This document shows, piece by piece, positions 3,163-44,670 of a stretch of 55,785 nucleotides of DNA. The stretch covers positions 1-55,785 of the forward strand of contig JABMPR010000003.1 in NCBI GenBank assembly GCA_013202895.1. The letters run 5' to 3'. The notes beneath the pieces are model-generated. The model did not search any database, was not told the origin of the DNA, and saw only the letters and a list, made by a program, of their open reading frames with translations. Position 1 is the first letter of the stretch. The number at the start of each line of letters is the position of its first letter. The position numbers and the translations under genes are program-made. The DNA is from a bacterium (GTDB lineage: Bacteria > Fidelibacterota > UBA8477 > JABMPR01).

Positions 3163-4050
3163 TCATTCTGAGTATGGCAAATTAATGTATGCATTTCCAA
3201 GATCATTTAGATCTCCTAGGTTAGGCTCAAATAAGTAAGTGTAATTATTGTCTGGATAACTTCCCCTGCCGATAAACCAGGCATAACGAAAAACATCGTC
3301 CCGCTCCTCACAAATCGCCACCATTTCAAGCATCTGTTGAAGTTGTTTGGCATAGGAATCAACTGTTGAATTCCAATTTGCCATTTCTGTAATCCAGATC
3401 TGTTTACCAAATTTTTCCAGGCTGTTGAGCTGAGACTCAAGACCGTAATCGTACCAATGAAAAGCCAGATAATCAATATCTGGATCTCTGCCCTGATTAT
3501 TTCTAAAGGCTGCATAAAAAGCGTCCAGCCAAACAACAGGATCCCAATAATTTGTCATATCACCCCAATTCATCGCAGGACCCACCAGGTAAATTGGCCG
3601 CCCCTCGTTTGCAAGTTCTGTTTTGACACGCTCATAAATCAGCCAGTCAAGGGCAGCTTGAGCGGGAGTTCGATTGGCTTGATCAGTCAGATTTGGTTCA
3701 TTCATCACCAGCAGGTATTCAACTTCTGGATGATCCAGAATAAAATTTTTAACCTGGAAAATATCATTTTCACTTGTGTTGCCACCCCATAGCATTGGTA
3801 TAAATTCCATTTCATAATCATCGTAGTACCCGCTTGGGGCTGAAGTTGAATAATACCAGTTATACCACCAGGAAACGCCATTTTTCAGAGCTTCCAGATC
3901 ATCAGGATGTGTCAGATTGTATGATATTCCCCGTTTGAAACTCTTCTCGATTCCCGGTGTTGGTTCTTGAATTTCCACGGGAGCGGGATTGTCGCTACAT
4001 GCCAATATCAAAAATGGAAGAAGGGAGAGCAATGCCTTATGTAAAGTCAT
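3163..4050 (-). CDS. Glycoside hydrolase GH128-type lipoprotein (Asl1-like, putative beta-1,3-glucanase)
   Basis: The fold is the Asl1-like TIM barrel of family GH128, whose known members cut beta-1,3-glucans. Counting from the chosen ATG, the acid/base is Glu118 in LLVMNEPN and the nucleophile Glu222 in IWITEMANWN, with the family's FHWYDYG strand at about 198-204. A lipobox (FLILAC, Cys18) predicts a membrane-anchored surface or periplasmic enzyme. I chose the ATG at 4050 over the one at 4101, because only the inner one gives a normal lipoprotein signal; neither has a strong ribosome site. The length of about 295 residues is normal. Its upstream flank contains recombination debris. Confidence 0.8.
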   Translation of the reverse strand: MTLHKALLSLLPFLILACSDNPAPVEIQEPTPGIEKSFKRGISYNLTHPDDLEALKNGVSWWYNWYYSTSAPSGYYDDYEMEFIPMLWGGNTSENDIFQVKNFILDHPEVEYLLVMNEPNLTDQANRTPAQAALDWLIYERVKTELANEGRPIYLVGPAMNWGDMTNYWDPVVWLDAFYAAFRNNQGRDPDIDYLAFHWYDYGLESQLNSLEKFGKQIWITEMANWNSTVDSYAKQLQQMLEMVAICEERDDVFRYAWFIGRGSYPDNNYTYLFEPNLGDLNDLGNAYINLPYSE

Positions 4051-4085
4051 TTTCGCGCATAAAAATGATATCACCGCGTTCGGTT

Positions 4086-4148
4086 TCACGCTATGCCCCA
4101 TCGCCAGGTCGAGTCTAAAAAATGGGGATATAAATCATCTTCTCTCAT
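4086..4148 (-). pseudogene. Duplicated stub of the DUF2161 gene start
   Basis: Minus-strand codons from the ATG at 4148 read MREDDLYPHF, against MREVDLYPAL at the start of the intact DUF2161 gene (ATG at 3089). At the DNA level 25 of 26 bases ending at each start codon match (3064-3089 versus 4123-4148). After ten codons the similarity is lost and the frame stops at 4086. It therefore looks like a remnant of a second copy or a rearrangement end, not a working gene. Confidence 0.55.
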
Positions 4149-4159
4149 GGTCAACCACA

Positions 4160-4444
4160 TTATTTTAACAGCACAATTTTACGTTTGGCCTGAAATTGTC
4201 CAGTTTGCATAACTACAAAATACACTTCGGAGCAGTAATTTTCGCCATTAAAACTGATCCCCTTGACACCTAAATTCTGGAGCTCATCCAGTAATATTGC
4301 CATTTCCTGCCCCAGGGTGTTATAGATGATAATTTTTACTTGACCACTCCCCCTGTGATATTCCGGCCCCAATTGTGCAAAATCCACTCCATTATCGATC
4401 CTATTCGATAATTTCCAATAAACACTTACCAAGGTGTTATCCAT
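4160..4444 (-). pseudogene. Remnant of a FlgD-like/type IX C-terminal sorting domain
   Basis: The last 60 of 94 residues match the C-terminal sorting domain of surface proteins in this superphylum: VKIIIYNTLGQEMAILLDE, a FNGEN turn, VYFVVMQTGQF and the closing RKIVLLK. The preceding NPFNP-type motif and any catalytic or structural domain are missing, and the residues before the domain are not recognisable. The usual SSGVYFYRL is worn to SEVYFVVM. No ribosome site is visible at the nominal ATG. It is best read as the surviving tail of a larger secreted protein. The stop lies 12 bp from the DUF2161 stub. Confidence 0.6.
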
Positions 4445-4807
4445 AACTACAGGTAACTGAGAAAGTCAGTGTCATTCACACCATGAATGATGAATCAGAA
4501 GCTAAAAAATATCAAAACAAGTAAGTGGGTATTATCAATATGATAGGATTACAACCACGACCAATAAGCTTCACAAAGATTGTTTCGATACTTGCTGCGA
4601 TCAATATTGGTGGAATGCTCTAACCCGATTTGGGTTGGATTAACCATTTTGGAATTAGGGTCAGGGTTGGTCGATGGTTTCATCAGTAATACTGCAAAAT
4701 GTTTTTGTCAGAGTTCAATCAATCGCTTTGAAATCCCTAAGCTTAAAGAAAACCTGAAAAAGTATCAAACCCTGATCTGATCATTTTTAAATATTGGGAG
4801 CTAATAC
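4445..4807. other. Gene-free stretch
   Basis: Between the sorting-domain remnant and the cold-shock gene terminator there is one open frame of 66 codons (4580-4780, plus) with no ribosome site, no recognisable domain and Cys-rich, untypical composition. I do not call it a gene. No RNA or repeat was recognised. Confidence 0.4.
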
Positions 4808-4840
4808 AAAAAAAACGCCGGCACTCTTGCGAGCCCGGCG
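4808..4840 (-). terminator. Rho-independent terminator of the cold-shock gene
   Basis: Read on the minus strand: CGCCGG, GCTC, loop GCAA, GAGT, a bulged G, CCGGCG, then a run of eight U. This is ten paired bases around a stable GNRA tetraloop, placed about 25 bp after the stop codon. Confidence 0.9.
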
Positions 4841-4863
4841 CTTAACTCAATTCTTAAAAAGAA

Positions 4864-5076
4864 TCAAACAGCAGTAACGTTCTCAGCCTGAGGACCTTTT
4901 TCGCCCTGTGTGACATTTAAAGTTACATTTTGTCCCTCTTTGAGAGACTGGTGTCCTTCGCCGTTGATTGCACGATAGTGAACAAACACATCCGGACCAT
5001 CTTCCTGTTGAATAAATCCGTAGCCTTTTGCGTCGTTAAACCATTTGACTACACCGTTGACTAATTGATCAGCCAT
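4864..5076 (-). CDS. cspA: Cold-shock protein, CspA family
   Basis: A 70-residue single cold-shock domain with both nucleic-acid-binding motifs: RNP1 KGYGFI (17-22) and RNP2 VFVHY (30-34). It binds single-stranded RNA and DNA and acts as an RNA chaperone in the cytoplasm. The start at 5076 ([13 protein letters not shown]) is preferred over an ATG nine codons earlier, because AGAGG lies 7 bp upstream and family members start here. A strong terminator follows, so it is transcribed alone. The long untranslated region upstream fits a CspA-type regulated leader, but I cannot show a cold box. The exact paralogue name is nominal. Confidence 0.93.
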
Positions 5077-5103
5077 TTGTACCTCTTTCTTAAACATGGC
5101 CAC

Positions 5104-5807
5104 CGTGGTGGCTTTTTTCTGGTCAGGCTTTTCTGCATACCTCTGCAGAACACATTATCCAAATTGGATTTTCCTGACGATTGCGTTGAATATGGGCATT
5201 GAAAATTAAAAACAAACAATCATTTACAATTTTTATTTCCCTAAATAAAAAAAGTAATTGGTGTGTTTACCTGAATAAGTTGGAGCTATTGAGTCAAAAC
5301 CGGCACCACAAGAACCAAATATTTAAAATTATCCTCAACAAATTTTGAGTTTTGAACGGGTCTGTTTGCAATCCTATTTGCTTTAATTGGATAAATGGCG
5401 ACTAGTCCAGTCATACAGAGAGAAATCACTTTAGATCTCCACATTGTCCAGAACCTGGCAGGCGGTTACAAAACAGTTTAAGCATAAATGAAAGGCTTGT
5501 TCAGTAGTCTTTAAACCCTTATACAGTAGGGGTTATCTGGGTTATACAGTTAAAGATGATTACACTTAAATCTGAGCTGAAAGATATTCACAGTTTAAAT
5601 GCAATGGGAAATATTTACAAGTTCTAGATCTTATTAATGCTATTCAAAACAGCAGGCAACCACCCTCATAAATCATGCTACGTACTTCGAATAGTTTTAG
5701 TGGAACCAAATTTATCTTACTTCTGTAATGATCCGTTCTAGCATAAATTGAATGCTTGTTAAAGACCTCTCTAATCACGATTCATTTTTAATAGAAGGAA
5801 ACCTTCG
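5104..5807. other. Long intergenic region (csp leader and promoters)
   Basis: About 700 bp, AT-rich, between divergent genes. It should hold the csp promoter and leader on the minus side and the M16 peptidase promoter on the plus side. It contains one copy of the ACCCTTA..ACAGTA.GGG hairpin element (5515-5535), and the word AGCATAAAT at 5484 and 5739 within a weakly repeated 21-bp stretch. Tiny frames occur (for example 5556-5627, MITLKSELKDIHSLNAMGN...), but are too short to support. Confidence 0.4.
5515..5535 (+). repeat. Dispersed hairpin element, copy 1
   Basis: A 21-bp stretch, ACCCTTATACAGTAGGGGTT plus A, matches 18 of 21 bases of the element at 49568-49588. The arms can pair into a small hairpin. 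It lies in a non-coding spacer, as does the other copy. Confidence 0.4.
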
Positions 5808-8800
5808 ATGAAATATTTAATAATTGGTCTCTCAATGTTTATTCTTTCATGTCAACCGAGCGCAAGGCAAAATGACCATCAGAAGACAGCAGATTCACCT
5901 GAATTTGCGTCACTTATCGAAAATGAAAGAATTGCAGACTTCTCGGTGGAAGCCCTCTATGAAACCGGGAGCGAGGAGGTTCTGGGTGCCAGATTTAGAC
6001 ATATCTCCAGCGGTTTTGTTCTGGATTTTCTGAGAATTCAATCGGTTCCCCAGGCATTTATGTGGGTTAATACTCACCCGGTTTCAGATCAGGGAGAACC
6101 TCACACCCTGGAGCACCTGTTACTCGGTAAGGGCAATCAGGGGCGCTATGTAGCCTCCTTAGAGAACATGTCATTGGGGAATAGTTCTGCCTTTACTATG
6201 CAACTGCGTACCTGCTATCATTTTAATACCGCTGCCGGCAGTGAAGTATTTTTCAATCTTTTTGAAGCCAAGCTGAATGCCATGCTCAATCCCAATTTTT
6301 CCGACGAAGAAATTCGCAGAGAAGTTCGTAATATGGGTATATCTGCCGATCCTGTCAGCGAGGAACTCTTCCTGGAAGAAAAGGGAACCGTCTACAATGA
6401 GATGGTAAGCTCATTCGATCGACCCTATTCGGATCTTTATTTCAAATTGAACAAAGCGATGTACGGTGACAAGCATCCCGTCAGTTATTCTGCCGGTGGG
6501 TTTCCTGCAAATATCAGGACGATGATTCCTGAGGATATTAGAAAATTCCACAGCGACACACACCATCTGAATAATATGGGCTGTGTTGTTGCAATACCTG
6601 ACGAATTAGACCTGCAAACCTGTCTGGATAAATTTTCTACCATTCTAGCTAGCGTGGAGAAGGAGGTTCTACCGGGGCTTCACCCTGATGATGTAAATTC
6701 AAATCTTCCCCTTCCGGAAATCCTTGAACCGGGCAAGCTGCTACACACCAGCTTTCCTAATGAGAATCCTGATGAACCGGGAGTCCTGCTTTTCAGTTGG
6801 CCTGCCAGCCTCAGCTTGAGTCCAGAGGATGGGTTACTGTTAGATTTGTTTCTCCAAAATCTTGGTCGTGGTCAAACCTCGAATCTTTATAAGAAATTTA
6901 TTGATACCAAGACTCGGGTTATTGAAACTGGCTCCACTGGAACTTATGCATATCGATCAGATGATATCGGCAGCCCAGTATTAGTAGGTCTTCAAAACAT
7001 TAGCCGAGAATCTGGCAGCCCGGTCATGATGGATTCAATCAGATCAATAATAATAAAAGAAATCAAAGATATTGCGGATTTTGCTGATGGTTCGCCTGAA
7101 TTGCTGAGTTTTAACGAACGCATACAGGGGCGGATCCTCGAAACCAGAAAGTTTTTAGATGATTTTCTCAATTCTCCGCCTCGATTTGGCTATCGCAGCA
7201 TAGGATCCAATTGGATGGATCACCTGACAGACCTCCATCGTCAGGGAGGATTTCGACGTTCGCTGGTGCTGAAATCACGTTTGGAACAGGCTGAAATTAT
7301 TGCCGCAAGCAGCAAAAATCACTGGAGTAAAATGATTGAGGATTGGCAGTTACTGACTCAAATTCCCTACGGGATCAGTACCCTGCCCGATCCTGCTTAT
7401 CAGGATAATGCGCGCAATGAGCGAACAGCCAGAATCAAGGAATTCACGCTGAAGCTCCAACAGAAGTACAATACTAAATCAGAAGCACAGGCTTTGGAGC
7501 AGTATCAGAAGGAGTATGCTGCCAATACAGACCAAATGGAACAGGATGCAGGAAAGATTGACATGCCTGGATTTATAGATAATCCTCCTTTGAGTTTGGA
7601 TGAAACACTCCAATACACGGTTGAATCAATGCCTGGTGGTGGTAGAATGGTGTATTCAAGATTTGATAATCTCAGTGGAGCAACTGTTGGTCTGGCATTC
7701 AATATGTATGTTGTGCCAGAATCCGAATTGCTTTATGCACCAATTTTACCACTTCTGTTGACCCAGATCGGAACTGAAATCAATGGAGAGAAGCTGACCT
7801 TTGAAGAGATGCAGGAGAAACAGAGACGCGAGATTCTAAGGCTCGACGTCCACTTCGACAGCAATATTAAGACCGAACGGGTTGAGTTAGTGGTTGAAGG
7901 AGCTGGTTCAAATCTAAGCGAAACTCAGCGGGCTTTAGAATGGATGGAGGCTGTGATCACAGCCCCTGACATCAGTATAAGCAATTTGTCTCGCATAAAT
8001 GATGTCATTGATCAGGCGTTGGCCAATAGTCGCAATCGGATACGTGGATCGGAGGAATCCTGGGTTAACAATCCTGCCGATGCTTTTCGAACACAGCATA
8101 ATCCACTCTACCTGAGCGCCAGTAGTTTTCTAACACAGAGTCATGCCTTTCAGCGTATCCGCTGGCAGTTAAAGACTGCAAATGCGGAAGAACTCATGGC
8201 TTTTCACGCCTGGGTGGAATCCACATCAGTATTAGGAGCACGTGGTCGCCTGTATCTTGAAAAATGGCTGGAGGAGGATAATAACGCTGAAGGGGGGAGT
8301 CATGATCTGATCCGATCCGCAATAAAGGACCTGGGGTCTGCACTGTCGGATATTCCGGATGAAAATCTAGCACAGGATTGGAAGGTTTTTTGTCAACAGC
8401 TGGAGTCAGACCTGACACTTTCCCCAGATATTGTTCTTGAACGTCTGCAGGAGCAGCTGGCATTGATTACCCACCAGGATAATGCCCGTGGATACTTGAT
8501 ATCAAACGCTGAACATCACGATAATTTATCACCGCTTTTGAATAGCTTGTGTGCGCGTTTGAATGCTGCTCCATCAAATCAGTACACATATGATAACGAA
8601 CTTAATATTAACCGACGCTTAATGGATCGATATCCTGATCTGAAAAGCGCCAGGTTTGTGGGGTTTGTGAATAATAATTCAAGTTCTGGCGTTCACATAA
8701 ATAATGCTCCTTTAACAGACGTTGAAGATGTTGATAAGGAGCAGCTCCTTAATTTTCTATCTGCAAAATTGTATGGTGGAGGGGGAGCCCACAGTATGTT

Positions 8801-9353
8801 TATGAAAACCTGGGGTGCGGGCTTGGCCTATTCCAATGGATTGGGATCTAATGAGCGGGGTGGTTATGTCAGCTATTATGCCGAGCGCTGTCCAGATCTT
8901 GCCCAAACCATGCAGTTTGTTATAAATGAGCTGGAAGATGCCGCCTATGATTCATCGCTTGGGGAGTATGCTGTTGCTCAAGCTTTTTCCCGTAATAGAT
9001 CTGGTGGTCGGTTTGAGGATCGTGGCCGAGCCATGGCTGCTGATCTGGCTGATGGATTAACTCCTGAGAAGGTTGCCGCTTTCCGCAAGCGCATAATTGA
9101 ATTGGGAAAACAGGATGACCTTTACGAGTTGCTCCGCGAACGGATGGAAAACACTTATGGCAAAATATTGCCGGGATATGGTCCACTGGGCATGGATACT
9201 CCAGGAGCTACTTACTTTCATATTGCTCCAGAACGTTTGCTTGATTCATATGAAAAATATCTAAGGAGTGTTGAAGGGGATGTGCAATTAATCCGTCTCT
9301 ATCCTAGAGACTTTTGGCTTGAGAACAGCGAAAGAAATGTTGTGATGCCTTGA
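5808..9353 (+). CDS. M16C (presequence-protease-like) metallopeptidase lipoprotein
   Basis: An 1181-residue zinc peptidase of the M16C branch (PreP/falcilysin-like), in which one chain carries four M16 domains closing as a clamshell around peptides. The inverted zinc motif HTLEH is at 99-103 (ligands His99 and His103, base Glu102), with Glu198 in GTVYNEM as the likely third ligand. The C-terminal half has the glycine-rich, Arg/Tyr-containing stretch (GGGGAHSMFMKTWG and NERGGYVSYYAER) that helps catalysis from the other half. A lipobox (MFILSC, Cys15) anchors it to a membrane, unlike organellar PreP. AAGGAAA precedes the ATG. It is longer than the roughly 970-residue PreP, with extra linker helices. 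It probably degrades peptides in the periplasm or at the surface. Confidence 0.9.
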   Translation: MKYLIIGLSMFILSCQPSARQNDHQKTADSPEFASLIENERIADFSVEALYETGSEEVLGARFRHISSGFVLDFLRIQSVPQAFMWVNTHPVSDQGEPHTLEHLLLGKGNQGRYVASLENMSLGNSSAFTMQLRTCYHFNTAAGSEVFFNLFEAKLNAMLNPNFSDEEIRREVRNMGISADPVSEELFLEEKGTVYNEMVSSFDRPYSDLYFKLNKAMYGDKHPVSYSAGGFPANIRTMIPEDIRKFHSDTHHLNNMGCVVAIPDELDLQTCLDKFSTILASVEKEVLPGLHPDDVNSNLPLPEILEPGKLLHTSFPNENPDEPGVLLFSWPASLSLSPEDGLLLDLFLQNLGRGQTSNLYKKFIDTKTRVIETGSTGTYAYRSDDIGSPVLVGLQNISRESGSPVMMDSIRSIIIKEIKDIADFADGSPELLSFNERIQGRILETRKFLDDFLNSPPRFGYRSIGSNWMDHLTDLHRQGGFRRSLVLKSRLEQAEIIAASSKNHWSKMIEDWQLLTQIPYGISTLPDPAYQDNARNERTARIKEFTLKLQQKYNTKSEAQALEQYQKEYAANTDQMEQDAGKIDMPGFIDNPPLSLDETLQYTVESMPGGGRMVYSRFDNLSGATVGLAFNMYVVPESELLYAPILPLLLTQIGTEINGEKLTFEEMQEKQRREILRLDVHFDSNIKTERVELVVEGAGSNLSETQRALEWMEAVITAPDISISNLSRINDVIDQALANSRNRIRGSEESWVNNPADAFRTQHNPLYLSASSFLTQSHAFQRIRWQLKTANAEELMAFHAWVESTSVLGARGRLYLEKWLEEDNNAEGGSHDLIRSAIKDLGSALSDIPDENLAQDWKVFCQQLESDLTLSPDIVLERLQEQLALITHQDNARGYLISNAEHHDNLSPLLNSLCARLNAAPSNQYTYDNELNINRRLMDRYPDLKSARFVGFVNNNSSSGVHINNAPLTDVEDVDKEQLLNFLSAKLYGGGGAHSMFMKTWGAGLAYSNGLGSNERGGYVSYYAERCPDLAQTMQFVINELEDAAYDSSLGEYAVAQAFSRNRSGGRFEDRGRAMAADLADGLTPEKVAAFRKRIIELGKQDDLYELLRERMENTYGKILPGYGPLGMDTPGATYFHIAPERLLDSYEKYLRSVEGDVQLIRLYPRDFWLENSERNVVMP

Positions 9354-9459
9354 TATTTCCAATATGAGTAACCCACTATCTTAGCATGTCCAGCAATCTT
9401 GGTCAGCACAGATAGCGGGATTGTAAGTTTCAGTTAATACTTTACACAAGAGGGGACAG

Positions 9460-9490
9460 GAACCGCTGCATTTGGCTCTGCGGCTTCTTT
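9460..9490 (+). terminator. Possible weak terminator after the M16 gene
   Basis: GAACCGC and GCGGCTTC can pair with one bulge around a 13-base loop, followed by only three U. It lies between convergent genes, where a terminator is expected, but the U tract is poor. Confidence 0.3.
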
Positions 9491-9589
9491 GATATCAAGT
9501 CAATAATTTTTTGCGCCATGTCTATCTGCAATAGGTCCAAACAGGAGAGGTTTCTAATTCATTTTTGCATGAATTCCCATCAATGATTC

Positions 9590-9904
9590 TCAAACAATCA
9601 AGGCGTCAAACATTTGCTGCATACTTTTTACATATAGTGTAAAAGCCTCCCGGCCTGTTTTGCTCAGGGAAATCATGGTTCTAGGTCTCTTACCCAAATA
9701 ACCTTTTTCTATCTTCACATAATGTGCAAGCTCCAGTTTATTCAAGTGGGTGGATACATTGCCCTGGGTGAGCCCGGTTTGGCGCATTAGAAAGACAAAA
9801 TCAGCACTTTCAACGACGTACAATTGGGCCAGGATTTTCAATCGTGCAGGTTCATGGATTAATTTATCAATATCTATTTGATTTTTTTGATTGATGTTGA
9901 CCAT
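9590..9904 (-). CDS. Winged-helix transcriptional regulator (HTH_34/MarR-ArsR-like)
   Basis: About 104 residues forming one winged-helix domain: IHEPARLKILAQLYVVESADF (helix 1), then FLMRQTGLTQGNVSTHLNKLE (helix-turn-helix) and the wing KIEKGYLGKRPRTMISLS. This matches the small HTH_34 regulators that accompany membrane proteins in this superphylum. Two starts are possible, a TTG at 9913 that overlaps the stop of the upstream gene and the ATG at 9904; I use the ATG. It is the second gene of a two-gene minus-strand operon with the membrane protein, and probably autoregulates it. The ligand is unknown. Confidence 0.85.
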   Translation of the reverse strand: MVNINQKNQIDIDKLIHEPARLKILAQLYVVESADFVFLMRQTGLTQGNVSTHLNKLELAHYVKIEKGYLGKRPRTMISLSKTGREAFTLYVKSMQQMFDALIV

Positions 9905-9909
9905 AATTA

Positions 9910-10509
9910 TCAAATTGTTTCTGATGTCGGATACTTTTTAAGGAACCGGAATAGATAAATACTTCCAATTACCAATAGCACAATGGCGACTAGGAGATAA
10001 GCATAGGCATTTTCTGATATAATCCCCGGATTTTCCCTGATTTCTTCGGACAGGTTAAATGCCCCTGTGATTAAAAACGCATAGAAGTACATTCGGTCAA
10101 ATGTCAAGAAATATGCGATGGCAATGCATATGGAAAGAATAATACCACTAATTATCCATCGAGGGTTTATAAATTCGAATAAAGGACTAGATATTCCAAA
10201 AAATCTGAGCGAAACCATTACTACAAGAAATACGGTAACGGTAATCATCAGGGACATTCTTTTTCTCACCCGCTTCTTGGTGAATCTCGCAACCCCCATG
10301 CGCGGTTCGTAGATATATTTTATTGCAAGTATTATAAATATAGCTGGGCCGATATAAAGGATGTCAATATAGTAGCGAATGTCATCGAAAAGCATGGCCA
10401 GAGTTGATACTATAAAAATTAACCCCATTTCGATTTCAACAAGACCTGTTTGGAATATTCCAGCTACCGTATTTTTTTCCAGCTGTTTGAGATTGAGTTT
10501 TTGTTCCAT
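9910..10509 (-). CDS. Integral membrane protein paired with winged-helix regulator
   Basis: About 199 residues with roughly six membrane helices arranged in pairs and a basic loop (EPRMGVARFTKKRVRKRMS) between them. The start at 10509 is chosen because AGAGGG lies 8 bp upstream and the longer frame adds an unlikely polar leader. Its stop is 5 bp before the regulator ATG, so both are surely one operon. No enzymatic motif is visible and I do not recognise a specific family. Pairs of this type (multi-pass protein plus HTH_34 regulator) recur in Bacteroidota-like genomes without an assigned role. Confidence 0.75.
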   Translation of the reverse strand: MEQKLNLKQLEKNTVAGIFQTGLVEIEMGLIFIVSTLAMLFDDIRYYIDILYIGPAIFIILAIKYIYEPRMGVARFTKKRVRKRMSLMITVTVFLVVMVSLRFFGISSPLFEFINPRWIISGIILSICIAIAYFLTFDRMYFYAFLITGAFNLSEEIRENPGIISENAYAYLLVAIVLLVIGSIYLFRFLKKYPTSETI

Positions 10510-10717
10510 TGTGTTTCCCTCTTTTGCCATATTGTGGTGCAGTTCAGTTTGCACTGCAAACATGTCTGCAGCAATAATAAACAAAGAATTCCTCAAAACA
10601 ACAATTATTCGAAGTCCTCAGATACGTTAGGGGATGTGGAGCTATTTGACGATGCTGCAGTCTGAAATTGAGTCTGCTGATTGGGGAGTGCTGGATTGAA
10701 TCATTACAAGATCAAGA

Positions 10718-11449
10718 TCATGCGTGAGCGTCAGGTGTGGCCTGCAAGACTTGATGGGCTCGATTTTTTTTGTTCGCTTCAAATCGCATTTGCAGAAGTT
10801 CAACTATGATGGCGAAACCCATTGGCAGATAGATCAGGGTTCTTGGAACATGCTGGTGCAGACCTTCGATGAAAAGAGTAACCCCAATCGTCACCAGAAA
10901 AGAGAGCGCCAGTATCTTCAGAGAAGGTCGGGCCAGGATGAATTCGCCAATGGGCTTGGCGAAAGCCAAAATGGCCAGAAATGAAACGATAACCGCAGGG
11001 ATGATGACCCAAATTTCTCGCGTGAGTCCAATCGCTGTAATAACTGAATCGAGTGAAAAGACAATATCAAGGAGAACAATGTCCCTGACTGCTCTATTGA
11101 AATTGGAGGCTGTTGATTTTCTTTCATCATCACCGACCTCTATTATTTCGACGGTGTGGTGGATTTCGGTTATTGCCTTCCACAATAGAAACATCCCACC
11201 TCCAAGCATCACCAAATCACGTACTGAGAGTCCAAAGATAATGGACGTCTTAATTCCAGTAATTGCCAGAAGCAAAGCGAGTGTAGCTATCCTTAAAATG
11301 AGCGCCAAAAAAAGACCTATGAGCCGAGCTCTTTCACGCCTAGTCTTTTCAATACGTCCGACCAGAATCGAAATCACCAGGATATTATCGATCCCCAGCA
11401 CGAGCTCAAGACCAAGAATCAGGATAAATGTCGCGATGTGATCAATCAT
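10718..11449 (-). CDS. TerC/YgdQ-family integral membrane protein
   Basis: A 243-residue protein with about seven membrane helices and the TerC signature: acidic residues inside helices (LGLELVLGIDNILVISILVGR near the start, VLLDIVFSLDSVITAIGLT near 125-145). Members export or buffer metal ions, Mn(II) in characterised cases, and some aid secreted metalloprotein folding. The duplicated DN/DS motif and a long basic loop after helix 1 (GRIEKTRRERAR) are both present, and the length is usual. It stands alone on the minus strand. I saw no yybP-ykoY-type riboswitch in the 270 bp upstream. The substrate is inferred only from the family. Confidence 0.9.
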   Translation of the reverse strand: MIDHIATFILILGLELVLGIDNILVISILVGRIEKTRRERARLIGLFLALILRIATLALLLAITGIKTSIIFGLSVRDLVMLGGGMFLLWKAITEIHHTVEIIEVGDDERKSTASNFNRAVRDIVLLDIVFSLDSVITAIGLTREIWVIIPAVIVSFLAILAFAKPIGEFILARPSLKILALSFLVTIGVTLFIEGLHQHVPRTLIYLPMGFAIIVELLQMRFEANKKNRAHQVLQATPDAHA

Positions 11450-19547: not shown

Positions 19548-20786
19548 ATGTCGGTATTGAAAAATATTAATATTTATCTGGTCGATGACGAACCTGATAC
19601 CCTGTTGGTGGTGAAATATTTACTGGAGGAACACGGGGCAAAGGTCAAAACAAATACATCCAGCCCAGAGGCCCTGGTGGAAATAAAGAATGATAAACCC
19701 GATCTAGTCATCCTTGATCTGATGATGCCTGAGATTGATGGTTTGGATATGTGCCGATTTCTACGTCAGGAACCAGGTCTGAAAGATCTCAAAATTGTTA
19801 TTTTTTCAGGTAAGTCATATGAGTACGACCAGCAACGTGCTATGTCATTTGGTGCTGATGGGTATATAACAAAACCCATGATTGATGAGAGATTCGTCAA
19901 AAAAATAGAGGAAATAATCGAGGAAAAAATCGAATTAAGGTATTGGGGTGTCCGCGGAACCTTGCCTGTACCAGGTGAAAAATCTCTTAGATATGGTGGA
20001 AACACCATCTGTGCATCAATCCAATTCCCAAAGGACAATTTCTTTATTCTTGACGCCGGGTCGGGAATTAAAGAACTCTCAGATCACCTCATGAGTCAAC
20101 AAGGGTCGGGACTTCATGCCAAAATCCTCATTTCTCATCCACACTGGGATCACATCAACGCCTTGCCATTCTTTGTTCCTTTATACATCGCTGGGAATGA
20201 ATTTGAGATATTTGGGGCTTCACATGGTCATGTAACAATGCGTGAATTGATTTCGGCCCAAATGGATGGCGTTTATTTTCCCATCCGCATAAAGGAGTTT
20301 GCCGCCAGAACTTATTTCCGTGATCTCAAGGAAGAGGAATTTCAGATCAACGATATCAATGTAAAAACCATGTTGCTTTCACATCCTGGTACCTGCCTTG
20401 GCTATCGATTGGAATACAAGAATCGATCTATTTGCTATATAACCGACAATGAGTTGTTCCCTGAAAATTCAACGGACTATAATTCGAATTACTGGGAAAA
20501 ATTAACCGCTTTCGTAAACTCAACAGATATTCTGATTACCGATGCAACCTATACTGATGAGGAATATATGCGAAAAAGCAGATGGGGACATTCCGCTGTT
20601 TCACAAGTTGTAAAACTGGCCGATAGAGCTGCTGTCAAAGAATTACACCTCATTCACCATGACCCTGATCAGAGTGATCTTGATATAGATCTTAAACTGG
20701 AAACAGCCCAAAAGCTTTTATCGGAAATGAAATCCAAAACCAAATGTATTGCCCCTTGTGAAGGACAAAGCTTCAAAGTATTGTAA
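19548..20786 (+). CDS. Response regulator receiver fused to a metallo-beta-lactamase-fold hydrolase
   Basis: A 412-residue fusion. Residues 5-125 are a receiver domain with the acidic pair at 13-14, phospho-Asp57 (LVILDLMMPEIDG) and Lys109 (YITKPM). From about 130 a metallo-beta-lactamase domain follows: RYWGVRGTLPVPG, LDAGSG at 168-173, the zinc motif HPHWDH at 197-202, a later His in SHPGTCLGYR and Asp in YITDNE, and a final His in LHLIHHDP. The hydrolase part resembles the PhnP/cyclic-phosphodiesterase-like branch, so phosphorylation may switch hydrolysis of a nucleotide-like substrate; that is inference. No strong ribosome site precedes the ATG. It shares the strand and neighbourhood with the hybrid kinase. 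Confidence 0.9.
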   Translation: MSVLKNINIYLVDDEPDTLLVVKYLLEEHGAKVKTNTSSPEALVEIKNDKPDLVILDLMMPEIDGLDMCRFLRQEPGLKDLKIVIFSGKSYEYDQQRAMSFGADGYITKPMIDERFVKKIEEIIEEKIELRYWGVRGTLPVPGEKSLRYGGNTICASIQFPKDNFFILDAGSGIKELSDHLMSQQGSGLHAKILISHPHWDHINALPFFVPLYIAGNEFEIFGASHGHVTMRELISAQMDGVYFPIRIKEFAARTYFRDLKEEEFQINDINVKTMLLSHPGTCLGYRLEYKNRSICYITDNELFPENSTDYNSNYWEKLTAFVNSTDILITDATYTDEEYMRKSRWGHSAVSQVVKLADRAAVKELHLIHHDPDQSDLDIDLKLETAQKLLSEMKSKTKCIAPCEGQSFKVL

Positions 20787-25092: not shown

Positions 25093-25764
25093 ATGAAACA
25101 AAATAACTCGAAGATATTTGGATTACTCTTTTGGATGATAATTTACAGTAGCGTTAACGCTCACGTGACCCTGGATTATCCTCAGGGAGGCGAGACATTT
25201 ATTGTTGGGGAAACGATAACTATACAGTGGCACATCACCATAGCCCACAATCAGGAGAACTGGGACCTGTATTTTTCCCCGGATGGTGGCAGCTCCTGGA
25301 ACATTATCTCAGAGGATCTCCCGGTATCTCGAGTCGATTATTTGTGGATTGTTCCTGAGGAGATAACAGATCAGGGTCGAATTAAAATATACATGGATAA
25401 TACTGCAGCAAATTATGAAGACGTTAGTAATAATTTCACTATACAGGCAGAAGCCGTTGCAATCCAGGACGAAAGAGTGTTGCCCCAAAAGCGGATGTTA
25501 TATCAGAATCACCCGAACCCTTTCAATCCCAGTACCAGCATTAGCTATGATATTCCAGAACCTTCTGACATAAGCCTCGCTGTTTATGACACCAGGGGTC
25601 GGACTATTACTATGCTCCAAGAGACTCACCAATCAGCAGGTAGTTACACAATCATATGGAACGGTATGGATGGATCCGGTAACCCAGTGAGTGCCGGGAT
25701 CTATTTTGCGAGATTCCAATCTGGTACATTTAGCCAAACCATAAAAATGGTATATTTGCGCTAA
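25093..25764 (+). CDS. Secreted protein with Kre9/KNH-like domain and FlgD-type C-terminal sorting domain; mature N-terminal His
   Basis: 223 residues. A signal peptide ends in VNA, which puts His24 at the mature N-terminus (HVTLDYPQGGETF). Residues 24-118 form a Kre9/KNH-type beta-sandwich (VGETITIQWHITIAHN, NWDLYFSPDGGSSWN, YEDVSNNFTIQ). The last 80 residues are the sorting domain (NHPNPFNPSTSISYDIPEP, VYDTRGRTI, SAGIYFARFQSGTF, KMVYLR). It is thus exported and then attached or released by a type IX-like route. AGGAGGAG precedes the ATG. His24, His47 and His52 are close in sequence and might bind a metal; that is inference. It stands 139 bp after the propeller gene. Confidence 0.85.
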   Translation: MKQNNSKIFGLLFWMIIYSSVNAHVTLDYPQGGETFIVGETITIQWHITIAHNQENWDLYFSPDGGSSWNIISEDLPVSRVDYLWIVPEEITDQGRIKIYMDNTAANYEDVSNNFTIQAEAVAIQDERVLPQKRMLYQNHPNPFNPSTSISYDIPEPSDISLAVYDTRGRTITMLQETHQSAGSYTIIWNGMDGSGNPVSAGIYFARFQSGTFSQTIKMVYLR

Positions 25765-39766: not shown

Positions 39767-40312
39767 CTACTTGTTTCGAGGAGGAGGTGGACCACCGCCG
39801 GGTGGAGGAGGACCTCCGCCAGGTTGATGCTGGGCATTTGGTGGTGGAACGCTTCCACGGGTCAACTCCTTTGCTAATGCTCGCAGACGTTCCTTTTGAA
39901 CTGGAGTACAGATGCTGTTCAGCTGGACAAAGTGACTGTATAAAGCAAAATCCAATTGGGCATGTATATCCCCAATATTGAGGGAAAGTTTATTTGCCAA
40001 GCTCGAATCTGCGTCTGGATTGAAGGCCAGGAGAATCAAAAGTTCTGAAGAATCCTTAAGTGCATGGACTAGTGGTTGATTGGCCCGGAAATGTTCTCTG
40101 CGGATGATGTGCATCTGTTCTACTTGTTCTGGAAAAAGATCCAGTTCAGTCTTAAGAAAATATTCGAGTCCATTTTTAGGACCCTGTGGTCCTTGTGGTC
40201 CATGAGATGACCGTTCATGCAGGAACATACTGGTAACCATGGCGAGATTGAGTATTACCAATAAGGCAATTGTATATTGCATCCATCTACGTTCTTTAAT
40301 CATATCAAGCAT
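39767..40312 (-). CDS. Periplasmic heavy-metal-sensor-like protein (CpxP/CnrX-like)
   Basis: About 181 residues: one N-terminal membrane helix (WMQYTIALLVILNLAMVTSMF), then a helical periplasmic domain with the LTxxQ-like pattern of the heavy-metal-resistance family (LDLFPEQVEQMHIIRREHF and ICTPVQKERLRALAKEL), and a low-complexity tail of GGGPPPPGG repeats. His-rich patches could bind metal. It follows the membrane protein gene with one base between and the sigma gene before that, the same order as sensor-antisigma-sigma sets such as CnrYXH. I use the ATG at 40312; a GTG at 40333 would overlap the gene before. Sensing of metal is inference. Confidence 0.78.
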   Translation of the reverse strand: MLDMIKERRWMQYTIALLVILNLAMVTSMFLHERSSHGPQGPQGPKNGLEYFLKTELDLFPEQVEQMHIIRREHFRANQPLVHALKDSSELLILLAFNPDADSSLANKLSLNIGDIHAQLDFALYSHFVQLNSICTPVQKERLRALAKELTRGSVPPPNAQHQPGGGPPPPGGGPPPPRNK

Positions 40313-40313
40313 C

Positions 40314-40664
40314 TTATTGATTCTCCCCGTCACTTAAGAGATATGTATCAGAATAATTTAGACCATACTGAGTAGATAAATTTTCGATATTGGTCATGCG
40401 GGCACTGGACACTATTTCGGCGGAGCTAAACGTCCAAAACATGATCAAGATATTCAGCACGACCAGACCCGCCATCATTCCAGGTTTTAGCGCCTGTATG
40501 AACCATGGCTCTTGTGCACTATCTGCACCACTACTCTCCTGTTTTATGCGATTTGTCAATCGCTCATAAAACCATGGATCCATGGTTGGTGGAACATCGG
40601 AATTAAAGGAATCCAGTGTTTTATTCACTTGATCCTGGATTCTATGGTCACTTGGTTTTTTCAT
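40314..40664 (-). CDS. Membrane protein, probable anti-sigma factor
   Basis: 116 residues: a cytoplasmic N-terminal part of about 58 residues (VNKTLDSFNSDVPPTMDPWFYERLTNRI), one membrane helix (PGMMAGLVVLNILIMFWTF, about 60-80) and a short periplasmic tail. Small size, single helix and place directly after an ECF sigma gene (2-bp gap) fit a membrane anti-sigma factor that holds the sigma until a periplasmic signal arrives. No HxxxCxxC zinc motif is seen, so it is not a ZAS-type factor. Function is inferred from context. Confidence 0.7.
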   Translation of the reverse strand: MKKPSDHRIQDQVNKTLDSFNSDVPPTMDPWFYERLTNRIKQESSGADSAQEPWFIQALKPGMMAGLVVLNILIMFWTFSSAEIVSSARMTNIENLSTQYGLNYSDTYLLSDGENQ

Positions 40665-40666
40665 AA

Positions 40667-41248
40667 TTACCTCGGGCTATTCATGTAATTCACACGCGTC
40701 GAGAAGTATTCCGTCAGGTGCCGTTTCAAGTTTTTTCGACCCCTGTGCAGTAAACCCTCCACAGCTGAAACCGAGGTCTGCATAATGTCGGCAACTTCCT
40801 GATTGCTATAATCTTCATAATTGTTCAGGGTGATGGCAACGCGTTGGTTCTCTGGTAATTTTGCCACCGCCCAGGCCAACATACGACTTTGTTCCGCTTG
40901 CATCAGATCTCCTTCTGGAGTTGAATCAGAGGGGACATCAATTTCATGTTCATCACTCCCGATGCCCAACAGGGCTTTCACAGAGCCCAATCTTCGTTTC
41001 CGATTTTGGCGTCTCAGATAGTCCAGACTTTTCGTTACTGCGATCCTATAGATCCAGGTCGATAATTGGGCATCTCCCCGAAAGTCATCCATGGATTTAT
41101 AGACCTGGATAAAGACTTCCTGGGAAATATCCTGAGCATCTTCACGTGATCTCAAAAAACGGTAACAGGTGCTGTAGACCCGCTCCTGATGGATGCTTAC
41201 GATATCGCGAAATTCGTTTTCTGCTTTAATCCTATTATTGCTACTCAC
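40667..41248 (-). CDS. ECF-type RNA polymerase sigma factor
   Basis: 193 residues with sigma region 2 (VYSTCYRFLRSREDAQDISQ, VYKSMDDFRGDAQLSTWIYR) and region 4 (LPENQRVAITLNNYEDYSNQ, VADIMQTSVSAVEGLLHRGR). It directs polymerase to promoters for envelope or metal stress. It is followed by the anti-sigma candidate and a periplasmic sensor. In the divergent spacer upstream the 10-mer TGGCGTCTCA points at this gene and, on the other strand, at the Spy-like gene, matching the CGTC-type -10 box of many ECF promoters. So it probably drives both arms. Confidence 0.94.
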   Translation of the reverse strand: MSSNNRIKAENEFRDIVSIHQERVYSTCYRFLRSREDAQDISQEVFIQVYKSMDDFRGDAQLSTWIYRIAVTKSLDYLRRQNRKRRLGSVKALLGIGSDEHEIDVPSDSTPEGDLMQAEQSRMLAWAVAKLPENQRVAITLNNYEDYSNQEVADIMQTSVSAVEGLLHRGRKNLKRHLTEYFSTRVNYMNSPR

Positions 41249-41336
41249 TCAGATTCCTGGTTTTACTTCAATATAGGTTCAGCAAACTTCGTCAACACGA
41301 TATCATTTTTCACCTGTCAGCTTACCTTGCACCTAA

Positions 41337-41346
41337 TGAGACGCCA
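41337..41346 (-). promoter_or_regulatory. Candidate ECF -10 element, sigma-operon side
   Basis: TGGCGTCTCA on the minus strand (plus-strand TGAGACGCCA), about 90 bp upstream of the sigma gene. CGTC followed by a pyrimidine/A-rich stretch is the usual ECF -10 core. The identical word faces the opposite arm at 41408-41417. Confidence 0.5.
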
Positions 41347-41407
41347 TTTTATTGAAAATCATTTGCTCAAAAATAAAAAATAAAAAACCGCAAGGTTTCC
41401 AGCTTGC

Positions 41408-41417
41408 TGGCGTCTCA
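41408..41417 (+). promoter_or_regulatory. Candidate ECF -10 element, Spy/CotH side
   Basis: TGGCGTCTCA, about 46 bp before the Spy-like ATG. It is identical to the word on the minus strand at 41337-41346. Possible -35 sequences upstream (ACCGCAAGG region) are not well conserved between the two sides. Confidence 0.5.
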
Positions 41418-41462
41418 ACAAACAGTACAACTGAACGACCACACAAGCAAAAGGAGACGGTT

Positions 41463-41870
41463 ATGCAAATCTATAGAAAAATTAACAAAGGAATTCTTAT
41501 CCTGGGAATGATACTAATCTCAAGTACTCTTTGGGCTCAGCCTGATGGTGGACAGCAAGGACCACCCCGGCTACCCGATTCAAAGCAGGTCGGGGAGATG
41601 GTAAAAGAAGTGAGTCAAACGCTGGCGCTGACCAAGAAACAAGAATCCCAGATCTCGAAATTGTATTTCAATCATTTTGAGCAGGCCCGACAGATGATGG
41701 ATAAGGGCAAAGCGACCCAACAAGACCACCACAAAGCGATGGATGCCTTGAGAACTGATTTTGAGAAACAGGTTGCCGAGTTGTTGAGCGATGACCAAAA
41801 AAAGGCTTACGAAGAGCTCAAGAAAAAACGTGGTCCAGGACCGGGACAACAAGGCTCAAAGCGAAAGTGA
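41463..41870 (+). CDS. Spy/CpxP-like periplasmic protein
   Basis: 135 residues: signal peptide (GILILGMILISSTLWA), a Pro/Gly/Gln-rich stretch, and the helical Spy/CpxP hairpin with LTxxQ-type motifs (LALTKKQESQISKLYFNHFE and LLSDDQKKAYEELKK), ending GPGPGQQGSKRK. Such proteins act as chaperones or sensors of unfolded proteins in the periplasm. AAAGGAGA lies 7 bp before the ATG, which fixes the start; a longer frame lacks a ribosome site. It is divergent from the sigma operon and 46 bp from the candidate -10 element, so it is probably under its control. Confidence 0.82.
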   Translation: MQIYRKINKGILILGMILISSTLWAQPDGGQQGPPRLPDSKQVGEMVKEVSQTLALTKKQESQISKLYFNHFEQARQMMDKGKATQQDHHKAMDALRTDFEKQVAELLSDDQKKAYEELKKKRGPGPGQQGSKRK

Positions 41871-41904
41871 TTTAGAACCAAAATACAAAACGAGAGATCT
41901 TATT

Positions 41905-43155
41905 ATGAAATCAGCACTTTTAATCTTACTCACAACCGTCCTTATTGCGATTTCTAGCTGTAGTGAAACAAAACCTTCAGCCGTAGAGGCAACCGATAAT
42001 TTGCCCGACATCAGTGGCTTTCCAGTGGTGAGCACCAATCAGTCCACATTCTACAATAACAATAGCGAAATATCTGATCCGGTTTCAGGTGAGGTGTTTT
42101 ACGGTCAAGATGCCCAGTACTCCAATAACGAACCCAGCTATCAGGATAATGGCGATGGTACTGTTACTGATCTAGTCACTGGATTAATGTGGGCTCAAAC
42201 TCCTGATATGGATGGGGATGATGATATCGATGCCTCTGACAAAATGACCTATGATGAAGCCCTGGCCGGAGCTGCCTCCTATAATCTGGCAGGCTACGAC
42301 GATTGGCGCCTGCCCAGCATTAAGGAGCAATATTCTCTGATCCTATTCAATGGAGTTGACCCCAGTGGATACGAAGGGACATCTACAGATGGGTTAATTC
42401 CATTCGTCGATACAGAGTACTTCGATTTTGCCTACGGAGATACAGATGCCGGGGAACGCATCATCGATTCTCAGTACGCCAGCTCCAGCATGTATGTAGA
42501 TGGTGAATTGCTGTTCGGTGTTAATCTGGCAGATGGACGTATTAAGGGATATGGATTACATATGCCCTTTGGTCCTGGTGAAAAAACCTTCTTTGTCATG
42601 TACGTACGTGGGAATACAACGTATGGTATAAATGATCTCGTTGATAATGGTGACAGTACCATTTCCGATAATGCAACTGGATTAATGTGGATGCAAAATG
42701 ATAGTCAGCTCTCAATGGATTGGGAAGATGCCTTGAGTTATGCTGAAAATCTGGAAGCTGCGGGTTATTCGGATTGGCGTCTACCGGATGCGAAGGAGTT
42801 ACAGAGTATCGTGGATTATTCCCGCTCTCCAGGAACGACGAGCTCTGCGGCAATTGATCCGCTTTTTGACGCGACTCAAATCACGAATGAGGCAGGACAG
42901 ATAGATTACGCCTGTTATTGGACAGGCACAACCCATGTTAACTGGTCGAATGTGGGTGGCGCCAATGCTGCTTATGTGAGCTTTGGACGAACGATGGGTT
43001 TCATGGGAGGTACCTGGGTGGATGTGCATGGAGCCGGTGCTCAGCGTAGCGATCCTAAAACAGGTGATCCAGAAGAATTTCCAACTGGTCATGGTCCGCA
43101 GGGTGATGCGATACGAATTTTCAATTATGTACGCTGTGTACGCACAGTCCAGTAA
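41905..43155 (+). CDS. Lipoprotein with two DUF1566 (Lcl-type) domains
   Basis: 416 residues with lipobox ISSC (LIAISSCSE, Cys near residue 19). Two DUF1566 domains share the signature GLMW...A...W.LP: GLMWAQTPDMDG then AGYDDWRLPSIKEQ in the first, GLMWMQNDSQLSMDWEDALS then AGYSDWRLPDAKEL in the second. This family resembles the ligand-binding Lcl/formylglycine-like fold and includes collagen-binding surface adhesins; activity is unknown here. The ATG at 41905 follows GAGAGA and gives the lipoprotein signal. It follows the Spy-like gene by 34 bp. Confidence 0.85.
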   Translation: MKSALLILLTTVLIAISSCSETKPSAVEATDNLPDISGFPVVSTNQSTFYNNNSEISDPVSGEVFYGQDAQYSNNEPSYQDNGDGTVTDLVTGLMWAQTPDMDGDDDIDASDKMTYDEALAGAASYNLAGYDDWRLPSIKEQYSLILFNGVDPSGYEGTSTDGLIPFVDTEYFDFAYGDTDAGERIIDSQYASSSMYVDGELLFGVNLADGRIKGYGLHMPFGPGEKTFFVMYVRGNTTYGINDLVDNGDSTISDNATGLMWMQNDSQLSMDWEDALSYAENLEAAGYSDWRLPDAKELQSIVDYSRSPGTTSSAAIDPLFDATQITNEAGQIDYACYWTGTTHVNWSNVGGANAAYVSFGRTMGFMGGTWVDVHGAGAQRSDPKTGDPEEFPTGHGPQGDAIRIFNYVRCVRTVQ

Positions 43156-43194
43156 AATTAACCTTTCGCCCCTGAATGGGTCAAATCAACTAAT

Positions 43195-44670
43195 ATGGAA
43201 GAATGCAAAATAGTGAAGCCAATAAAATCATCTTTTGAAAAAGTTGCAGCCTCATTCTTTTCAATTATCGATAAGCTAATCATTCTTTCCATTATGCTTT
43301 CAATAAGCTGCTCTGATACCACCACTTCCCCAATTGTAACTGTCGATGATCCTGATTTTGAACCCATAGATTGGACCACAGAAACCCATGGCAAAGCTGC
43401 GGACCCAAATTTCGATGAGGTTTTTGATGATACACAAGTTAAACGATTCGATATTGTTATTTCTTCAGATTACTGGCAGAGTATGCTGGATGATATGACC
43501 GAGCAGTATGGTGATTTTGGAAGCGCAGGCGATCAGCCCGGTGGTGGTCCGGGAGGAGGTCCTCCTGGTGGCGGGTTAGATGAAGGTGCTAAAGATCCAA
43601 TTTTTGTGCCAGCAGACATCTATTATAATGGCACTCAATGGTATAAAGTGGGGGTCCGTTTTAAGGGAAATTCAAGCTTACGAAGCAGCTGGTTGTCAGG
43701 AATATTAAAGATGTCACTCAAATTGGATTTTGACGAGTTCGAAGACGACTATCCACAAATCAGCAACCAACGGTTTTTGGGATTTAAGAAGCTTAGTCTT
43801 AAAAATAACTATGAAGATAAATCCTTTTTGAGAGAAAAAGTGACAGCCGAAATATTTGAAAACGCCGGATTGGCAGTCTCTCATACTGCCTTTTATGAAG
43901 TTTACATAGATCATGGTGATGGGCTTGAATATTTTGGTTTGTACACACTGGTCGAGGAAGTTGATGATACCCTCATTGACACCCAATTTTCCAGTGACGA
44001 TGGCAATTTGTATAAACCGGAAGGCACGGGGGCCAGTTTTATAGTAGGTTCATTCAATCAATCTGACTTTACAAAAAAAACCAACGAAGACGGTGGCGAC
44101 TGGACCGATATCCAAACCTTGTTTGAGGTGCTACATGCTGAAAGCAGGGTGACTGATCCGGATTCCTGGAGAACCAGTATGGACTCCATTTTTGATACAC
44201 AGGTATTTCTGAAATATTTAGCCCTGAATACAGTGGTTCAAAACTGGGATACCTATGGCCGCATGCCACATAATTACTACCTTTATAACAATCCTGATAA
44301 TGGAAAGCTTACCTGGATTCCATGGGATAACAATGAGGCCTTACAAGAAGGAAAAATGGGCGGATCGTTGAATCTGAATTTTTCGGATCTTCAATCAGGA
44401 GCCTGGCCCTTGATCGAGTATCTGTATACAGATGAAGTCTACAGAGCCACCTATGATGCATTTGTAGGAGAAGCTGGTGAGGGTGCCTTCGAATCGCTAG
44501 CTATTCAGACCAGGTACTCAGAATACGCGACATTAATAGAACCATACGCAACATCGGAAATAGCAGGATACACATTCTTATCTGGTAGTGGCGATTTCCA
44601 GGGCGCCATAGCAGGGCTAAATGCCCACGTAAATAGTCGTGCAAATGCGATTAATGCTTATTTACCATGA
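43195..44670 (+). CDS. CotH-kinase-family lipoprotein
   Basis: 491 residues with lipobox LSISC near residue 41 and a CotH kinase domain from about 75: FDIVISSDYWQSMLDD, VGVRFKGNSSLRSSW, FLGFKKLSLKNNYEDKSFLR, YFGLYTLVEEVDDTLI, MPHNYYLYNNPDNGKLTWIP, then WDNNEAL. CotH proteins are atypical kinases that phosphorylate secreted proteins; KGNSS, the VEEVD strand and the WDNN Asp are the expected nucleotide/metal positions. A Gly/Pro linker (GDQPGGGPGGGPPGGG) lies near 115. It follows the DUF1566 gene by 39 bp and ends the plus-strand arm. The long N-terminal leader makes the exact start uncertain. Confidence 0.88.
   Translation: MEECKIVKPIKSSFEKVAASFFSIIDKLIILSIMLSISCSDTTTSPIVTVDDPDFEPIDWTTETHGKAADPNFDEVFDDTQVKRFDIVISSDYWQSMLDDMTEQYGDFGSAGDQPGGGPGGGPPGGGLDEGAKDPIFVPADIYYNGTQWYKVGVRFKGNSSLRSSWLSGILKMSLKLDFDEFEDDYPQISNQRFLGFKKLSLKNNYEDKSFLREKVTAEIFENAGLAVSHTAFYEVYIDHGDGLEYFGLYTLVEEVDDTLIDTQFSSDDGNLYKPEGTGASFIVGSFNQSDFTKKTNEDGGDWTDIQTLFEVLHAESRVTDPDSWRTSMDSIFDTQVFLKYLALNTVVQNWDTYGRMPHNYYLYNNPDNGKLTWIPWDNNEALQEGKMGGSLNLNFSDLQSGAWPLIEYLYTDEVYRATYDAFVGEAGEGAFESLAIQTRYSEYATLIEPYATSEIAGYTFLSGSGDFQGAIAGLNAHVNSRANAINAYLP

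Follow-up and report, generated by a model that had tools for sequence, protein, structure and literature searches.

An ECF sigma factor block with mirrored promoter motifs and a probable local regulon of Spy-like, Lcl and CotH genes

The window analyzed here, 55,785 nucleotides long, is the entire contig JABMPR010000003.1 (C348) of a genome bin of 3.59 Mb and 87.7% completeness from an uncultured marine bacterium. Positions 39767 to 44670 hold a compact divergent block of six open reading frames (ORFs): a minus arm with the genes of a sensor candidate (MetR), a candidate anti-sigma factor (aSig) and an extracytoplasmic function (ECF) sigma factor, and a plus arm with the genes of a Spy-like protein (Spy), a DUF1566/Lcl_C protein (Lcl) and a CotH-family protein (CotH). 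Based on comparisons with a genus set of 19 genomes and a phylum set of 245 genomes, we consider it fairly likely that this block, taken as a whole, is a membrane-signalled ECF switch whose regulon is small and local. Control of both arms by the ECF factor is very probable, because one promoter motif is mirrored on them in six genomes and also precedes the separated operons of a more distant relative, G076. Such co-regulation had been proposed in the initial annotation of the block, and the comparison supports it well.

A promoter motif common to both arms

The motif AAGGTTT-N12-CGTC faces outward on both arms, with identical spacing, in the six genomes of the genus that have this ECF gene (the window genome, G004, G006, G012, G015 and G018). 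Nine of the twelve arms carry all seven letters of AAGGTTT; the other three are the two G018 arms (6/7 and 5/7) and the sigma arm of the window (5/7, ATGATTT). With a matrix built from the Spy arms alone, the sigma-arm site was the best position in all six genomes, and its score was reached by 0 of 1000 dinucleotide shuffles in G004 and in G012, 1 in G015, 3 in G006, 10 in the window and 95 in G018. A second matrix was built from all twelve arm sites, whose own high scores are therefore expected; the G076 sites and a third G018 site were not part of its training set. Two of 111510 window positions scored at least 15 with this matrix, and these are the two arm sites; in eleven background loci, one of 250322 positions did so.

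The exact form CAAGGTTT-N12-CGTCT had 12 matches over the phylum set, seven at this locus and five in genomes without aSig, against 23 for the reversed-pattern control. The exact motif is thus not commoner than chance overall, and its concentration at the ECF locus is the unusual part. When 12 genomes were searched, all seven matches of the exact motif fell at this locus. The shorter form AAGGTTT-N11-RCGTC gave 15 matches in the genus set (eight at the locus, four elsewhere in ECF genomes and three in ECF-less genomes), and its control gave 26. A broad regulon was considered and found unsupported, as exact or one-mismatch matches elsewhere stayed at or under the level of the reversed-pattern control. 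One short-form match on another contig of the host genome (C246, L140) falls within a long ORF and was set aside as chance-like.

An independent case is G076, which belongs to another family of the same phylum. It carries, all in one direction, ECF (46% identical), aSig, MetR, VTC, DUF4956, DUF2490, CotH (46%), Spy and Lcl (68%) genes, of which VTC, DUF4956 and DUF2490 were named by their likeness in sequence and order to Pfam-typed genes of G018. Exact sites precede VTC, in the run that ends in CotH, and, separately, the Spy-Lcl pair, which suggests that rearranged cargo carries the same promoter. The third G018 site (matrix score 15.0) lies 31 bases before the VTC ORF of a corresponding run. 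These VTC-DUF4956-DUF2490-CotH runs occupy positions 9465-13169 of L093 in G018 and 2071-5617 of L138 in G076; we take their VTC member to be a polyphosphate polymerase domain. At positions 1486-1970 of L138, the start and signal-peptide part of the G076 spy gene seems, by eye, to be out of frame with the rest, from either an assembly error or a real change.

Conservation of the block and variation of its cargo

All six ORFs were found where the initial annotation had placed them, with gaps within the arms of 1 to 39 bases: 1 base between MetR and aSig (counted from the conserved MetR start), 2 between aSig and ECF, 34 between Spy and Lcl and 39 between Lcl and CotH. The ECF and Spy starts are 214 bases apart. 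The block is more than a chance arrangement, because it recurs in other genomes. Among the 19 genomes of the genus, the five that share the ECF gene with the window genome have it at 75-81% identity, and aSig was found in exactly the same six genomes. MetR-aSig-ECF with a divergent Spy beside it is present in all six, the MetR of G015 being cut at a contig end. The four nearest loci found with the ECF profile (76-81% identity) come from metagenome-assembled genomes of Candidatus Neomarinimicrobiota; 12 more loci are 24-34% identical.

The genes behind Spy vary. They are Lcl-CotH in the window, CotH-Lcl in G004 and G006, Lcl-CotH-Lcl in G012, Lcl alone in G015, and ferredoxin, ferric-reductase-like, FAD protein, VTC, DUF4956, DUF2490 and CotH genes in G018, where a second, longer CotH gene stands directly behind MetR. 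The fixed six-part system first envisaged must accordingly be narrowed: its constant part in the genus is MetR-aSig-ECF beside Spy, and Lcl and CotH are variable cargo, replaced by an exporter beside the ECF gene in G021 and G242. The CotH subtype of the window, a short one, follows the ECF gene within the genus, occurring in five of the six ECF genomes versus none of the 13 without it, a count uncorrected for relatedness. In total, 61 CotH matches were found in 12 of the 19 genus genomes. Comparison of 101 ECF and 61 CotH rows placed six of them within 10 kb of a listed ECF gene, all at this locus (distances by eye), and the other 55 not near one; the ECF list comes from one protein query and may miss distant ECF genes. 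At three further ECF loci in the genus (L145, L146 and L147), blastp showed no relative of MetR, Spy or CotH alongside.

Some further arrangements were seen around these genes. In G018, the ferredoxin, ferric-reductase-like and FAD-binding genes between Spy and VTC (L093, 6622-9263) may be a redox branch of the arm. Elsewhere in the same genome (C22; L142, 4504-7533), an Lcl fragment, a Spy-like gene, a histidine kinase gene (PF06580) and a LytTR response regulator gene run in one direction, so that a Spy-Lcl pair stands beside a two-component system instead of an ECF gene. A secreted protein of about 980 residues with PKD, CBM9 and Por_Secre_tail domains is encoded at positions 2038-4974 of L092, with similar ORFs in L090, L091, L095 and L097. 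It adjoins MetR in three relatives, and ORFs like it in their N-terminal letters adjoin Lcl or a long CotH in two ECF-less genomes.

Sigma factor, candidate anti-sigma factor and sensor

The sigma factor has Sigma70 regions 2 and 4 only (Pfam Sigma70_r2, E 1.7e-18; r4_2, E 1.6e-13), as is proper to the ECF group. Its nearest solved relatives are SigW, sigma-H and sigma-E, and CnrH matches more weakly (E 9.8e-12). The label of membrane anti-sigma factor given to aSig proved weaker than implied, since no Pfam or NCBIfam model matched the protein. In eight genomes (G021, G076 and the six genus members) its gene is flanked by ECF and MetR, and its profile matched in nine of the 245 phylum genomes, with an ECF gene adjoining in all nine. 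A strongly conserved tail, I93-L109, lies past the transmembrane helix and is plausibly a docking site for MetR. Class I zinc-binding anti-sigma factors are described in excerpts of PMC7406223 by an Hx3Cx2C motif; aSig has no cysteine at all and therefore lacks it. We regard aSig, from its topology judged by eye, as a candidate CnrY-like (class II) membrane anti-sigma factor.

The start of MetR that is conserved among relatives is an internal Met (codon 40312-40310). The protein matches Metal_resist (PF13801) with E 5.1e-5 and 23.9 bits, under the curated cut-off of 29.2, which the G018 orthologue exceeds with 31.9 bits. A structural model (mean pLDDT 69.9, with core helices at 78-93 by blocks of ten) was matched by Foldseek best to CnrX (3epv, 2y3b) and then to Spy, ZraP, CpxP and NccX, all at probability 1.00, so that a CnrX/CpxP/Spy fold is predicted even though no E value fell below 0.001. 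Profile searches against solved sequences gave weak matches only, the best being a VirG-like protein (E 0.0037). The metal ligands of CnrX include H42, H46, E63, H119 and M123. Three MetR residues, H81, H134 and C142, are invariant across eight sequences, and H134 aligns with H119, the sole CnrX ligand that has an invariant counterpart. In view of these ligands, the heavy-metal sensor first proposed is doubtful, in spite of the predicted fold.

A true metal sensor of the CnrYXH kind, in which a transition metal would bind to MetR and the plus-arm genes would serve metal tolerance, has some points in its favor besides the fold and H134: PF13801 is a heavy-metal-resistance family, and exporter genes (HlyD, ABC and MacB-type) adjoin ECF in G021 and G242. 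MacB exporters are, however, not known to be metal-specific, and no exporter was noticed in the arms of the six genus genomes and G076, where Spy, Lcl, CotH or the VTC run make up the cargo. In addition, alignment revealed no conserved His in MetR for the H42/H46 region of CnrX, hhalign gave the MetR/CnrX pair a probability of 0.4%, and M123, which is needed for CnrX signalling according to excerpts of PMC7689651, corresponds to an invariant Leu (L138). We consider metal sensing unlikely.

Plus-arm proteins and Gly/Pro tracts

Spy, which opens the plus arm, had been labelled Spy/CpxP-like with more confidence than the data allow. It matches LTXXQ with E 0.025 and 15.7 bits, under the cut-off of 24.3, and its model (pLDDT 63.9) had no meaningful match among solved folds; orthologues are present in all six ECF genomes of the genus and in G076. 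The two DUF1566 domains read in Lcl, a probable lipoprotein, were borne out by Lcl_C/DUF1566 (PF07603), which matches over its cut-off in two stretches (E 8e-40, 136 bits), and orthologues are 75% identical in G012 and 68% in G076. The family identity of CotH is likewise firm, with PF08757 matched at E 5.4e-67 and 227 bits over model positions 1-320 of 322, and with a match to 5jd9 at E 7.5e-8. CotH kinases are known from spore coats. In the window protein, NWD (350-352) and PWD (376-378) align with NFD and PWD of Bacillus cereus CotH. Both NWD and PWD are conserved, and six orthologues keep the invariant residues, including C39.

Gly/Pro/Gln tracts had been pointed out in three proteins of the block, and two of them are indeed extreme. 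MetR and CotH hold the two most extreme Gly/Pro tracts among the 47 window ORFs of at least 100 residues, each having a run of 12 residues made up entirely of G and P, whereas the next two ORFs, Spy among them, reach only 7 in their best 12. In the six other CotH loci of the genome, some of them cut, the longest frame of each has at most 7 G/P per 12 residues. The Pro/Gly-rich tail of MetR recurs in relatives, being shorter in G021 and cut at the contig end in G015. The CotH of G018 lacks such a tract, and that of G076 has a reduced one.

Points against the local regulon and its alternatives

Several observations weigh against a membrane-signalled switch with this local regulon. In the cross-arm test, the result for G018 is weak and that for the window modest, and the lone background site (score 15.8) precedes Lcl in G008, which does not have this ECF gene. 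In G076, no above-threshold site lies upstream of ECF, and a third site (18.7, not of the exact form) falls between ECF and aSig. G021, with a 67% identical ECF, aSig and MetR, has no site, Spy or CotH on its 6.3 kb contig. The exporters of G021 and G242 show how widely the cargo differs; in G242 (ECF 35% alike, aSig match weak at E 9.1e-4) the exporter is divergent from ECF, at the place that Spy has in the window. On the protein side, the Foldseek matches of MetR all have E values above 0.001 (best 5.8e-3) with a model of mean pLDDT 69.9, and the second Asp of the B. cereus PWD-x-D motif is Asn in this CotH, so that its kinase activity is not assured. Finally, a profile of the short CotH subtype matched 11 of the 245 genomes at E 1e-60 or below, six at the ECF locus and five, all of family f11, unlinked to it. 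In stretches of 6.8-18 kb from these five loci, blastp revealed no relative of ECF, Spy or Lcl, and the motif was not convincingly present, which implies that CotH was recruited to the regulon, or lost from it, in some lineages. Unlinked arms in relatives had been named from the outset as evidence that would speak against the system, and they were found in part: besides the lone f11 genes, G015 has the ECF arm, Spy and Lcl without CotH of this subtype, and G018 has CotH without Lcl at the locus.

These data could also mean that ECF controls only its own operon and spy, with Lcl and CotH as unrelated cargo carried along by proximity or read-through. Five of the 11 genomes with the CotH subtype have it on its own, four ECF-less members of the genus keep an Lcl relative (one of them weak), and the cargo varies among the six genomes and gives way to exporters in G021 and G242. 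But the CotH run of G076 has an exact motif of its own, apart from that of Spy-Lcl, and the G018 site precedes the run from VTC to CotH. The split of the subtype between genus genomes with and without ECF, with its reservation about relatedness, also speaks against this reading, and we find unrelated cargo improbable. It is very unlikely that another factor regulates the plus arm from the intergenic motif: the -35/-10 reading does come from comparison only, but the motif is made of two elements at a fixed distance, with CGTC resembling a -10 element; it points outward on both arms, 7 of its 12 exact phylum matches lie at the ECF locus, and the six blocks share no further regulator.

Proposed mechanism

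If the block is an ECF switch with a local regulon, it may work as follows. In the resting cell, aSig would keep the ECF factor bound to the inner membrane. MetR would be anchored there too, its helical domain projecting into the periplasm and touching the conserved tail that aSig exposes on that side, much as CnrX does with CnrY. On a signal in the periplasm, for which unfolded protein or another envelope stress seems likelier than nickel or cobalt, MetR would change and aSig would then release the ECF factor. The freed factor would transcribe from the two outward AAGGTTT-N12-CGTC promoters both its own operon, as feedback, and the Spy-Lcl-CotH operon. Spy might protect periplasmic proteins. 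Lcl and CotH, as exported lipoproteins, might change the surface by remodelling or modification, and for CotH this could mean the phosphorylation of proteins in the envelope or at the surface. Taken further, envelope stress could act through this sigma factor to bring about phosphorylation of proteins outside the cell: ECF would build a CotH kinase together with Spy- and Lcl-like partners or substrates (in relatives, with a polyphosphate-type VTC/DUF4956 module), the surface would be remodelled chemically, and a feedback loop could be closed through the Gly/Pro tracts of MetR and CotH, serving as sites of contact or as targets. This extension is tentative, and we hold it to be possible though doubtful.

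Coordinates and neighbouring genes

Table 1. Features of the ECF block in the window and exporter genes in two relatives
Feature	Location	Strand	Description
MetR	ORF 39767-40333; conserved start gives 39767..40312	-	membrane-anchored periplasmic sensor/chaperone candidate; predicted CnrX/CpxP/Spy/ZraP fold; Pro/Gly-rich tail
aSig	40314..40664	-	candidate anti-sigma factor; spans the membrane once (topology by eye); C-terminal tail past the transmembrane helix conserved
ECF sigma factor	40667..41248	-	Sigma70_r2 + r4_2
Predicted sigma-arm promoter	41336..41366	-	GCAAATGATTTTCAATAAAATGGCGTCTCAT
Predicted Spy-arm promoter	41388..41418	+	CCGCAAGGTTTCCAGCTTGCTGGCGTCTCAA
Spy	41463..41870	+	small exported helical protein, weakly Spy/LTXXQ-like; opens plus arm
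Lcl	41905..43155	+	probable lipoprotein, two DUF1566/Lcl_C domains
CotH	43195..44670	+	CotH-family probable lipoprotein, short 450-490 aa subtype
Exporter genes (HlyD, ABC, MacB-type)	L137 (G021) 2827-6118; L139 (G242) 7478-10774		beside ECF-aSig

The neighbours of the block in the window (rhodanese, luciferase-like, LtrA, SDR and AHSA genes) had no blastp match in nine stretches from relatives. Three window ORFs located 19-37 kb off the block (2415-3089, 3163-4101 and 19548-20786) do have relatives in the same nine stretches. Another ORF, 25093-25764, is 42% identical to part of a long CotH-containing protein of G018, probably because of the FlgD_ig and Por_Secre_tail sorting domains that it carries.

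Comparison with known systems

A close layout is cirYZ-spy of Phocaeicola vulgatus, likened here by gene order and not by sequence homology. According to excerpts of PMC13114119, cirY and spy are induced there, along with two genes next to them, when the anti-sigma gene is removed. Both systems have ECF, anti-sigma and Spy-fold genes in a row (in the window, a candidate anti-sigma gene and a predicted fold), and the P. vulgatus sigma factor activates its own gene, spy and the two neighbouring envelope genes. However, the P. vulgatus cargo consists of a carbohydrate-binding hydrolase and a glucosaminidase/LysM protein, whereas the window has a divergent second Spy-like gene, Lcl and CotH. With CnrYXH of Cupriavidus metallidurans (L206), as presented in excerpts of PMC7689651, the block shares an ECF factor, a short membrane anti-sigma protein (here a candidate) and a membrane-anchored periplasmic sensor of the same predicted fold. 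It differs in gene order, in the CnrX metal ligands, which are not conserved in MetR, and in its target, which is not the Cnr efflux pump.

The other module has been met beside pel genes, where CotH occurs with a polyphosphate polymerase and DUF4956 (parts of PMC7112168; CotH with polyphosphate polymerase also in parts of PMC12345266). The VTC-DUF4956-DUF2490-CotH runs of G018 and G076 resemble this set and stand under the ECF motif, while no pel gene, though none was searched for, was noticed in the fetched stretches of either genome, and the window keeps CotH only. Excerpts of PMC12345266 report that its CotH/polyphosphate-polymerase gene trio was not found outside pel loci. A sigma gene close to CotH and VTC genes has been printed before, for the NELoc-2 locus of Clostridium perfringens, where excerpts of PMC2879425 place a sigma-factor gene two genes before the VTC gene in the same locus as CotH; there, however, the factor is labelled SgiI and the host is Gram-positive. 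In the portions of open-licence PMC literature covered, no description of a CotH/ECF link was found, and the C. perfringens table was the nearest. The new element is thus a putative ECF-type promoter motif linking two known modules, ECF/anti-sigma/Spy and CotH/VTC.

The role of CotH in bacteria that do not form spores is left open by the excerpted texts of PMC7112168 and PMC12345266. Promoter motifs common to two families of one phylum now place CotH in the probable local regulon of an ECF switch. CotH can thereby be studied under a concrete condition, activation of a single sigma factor, and together with a few candidate partners that would share its control: the Spy-like protein, Lcl, VTC, DUF4956 and DUF2490.

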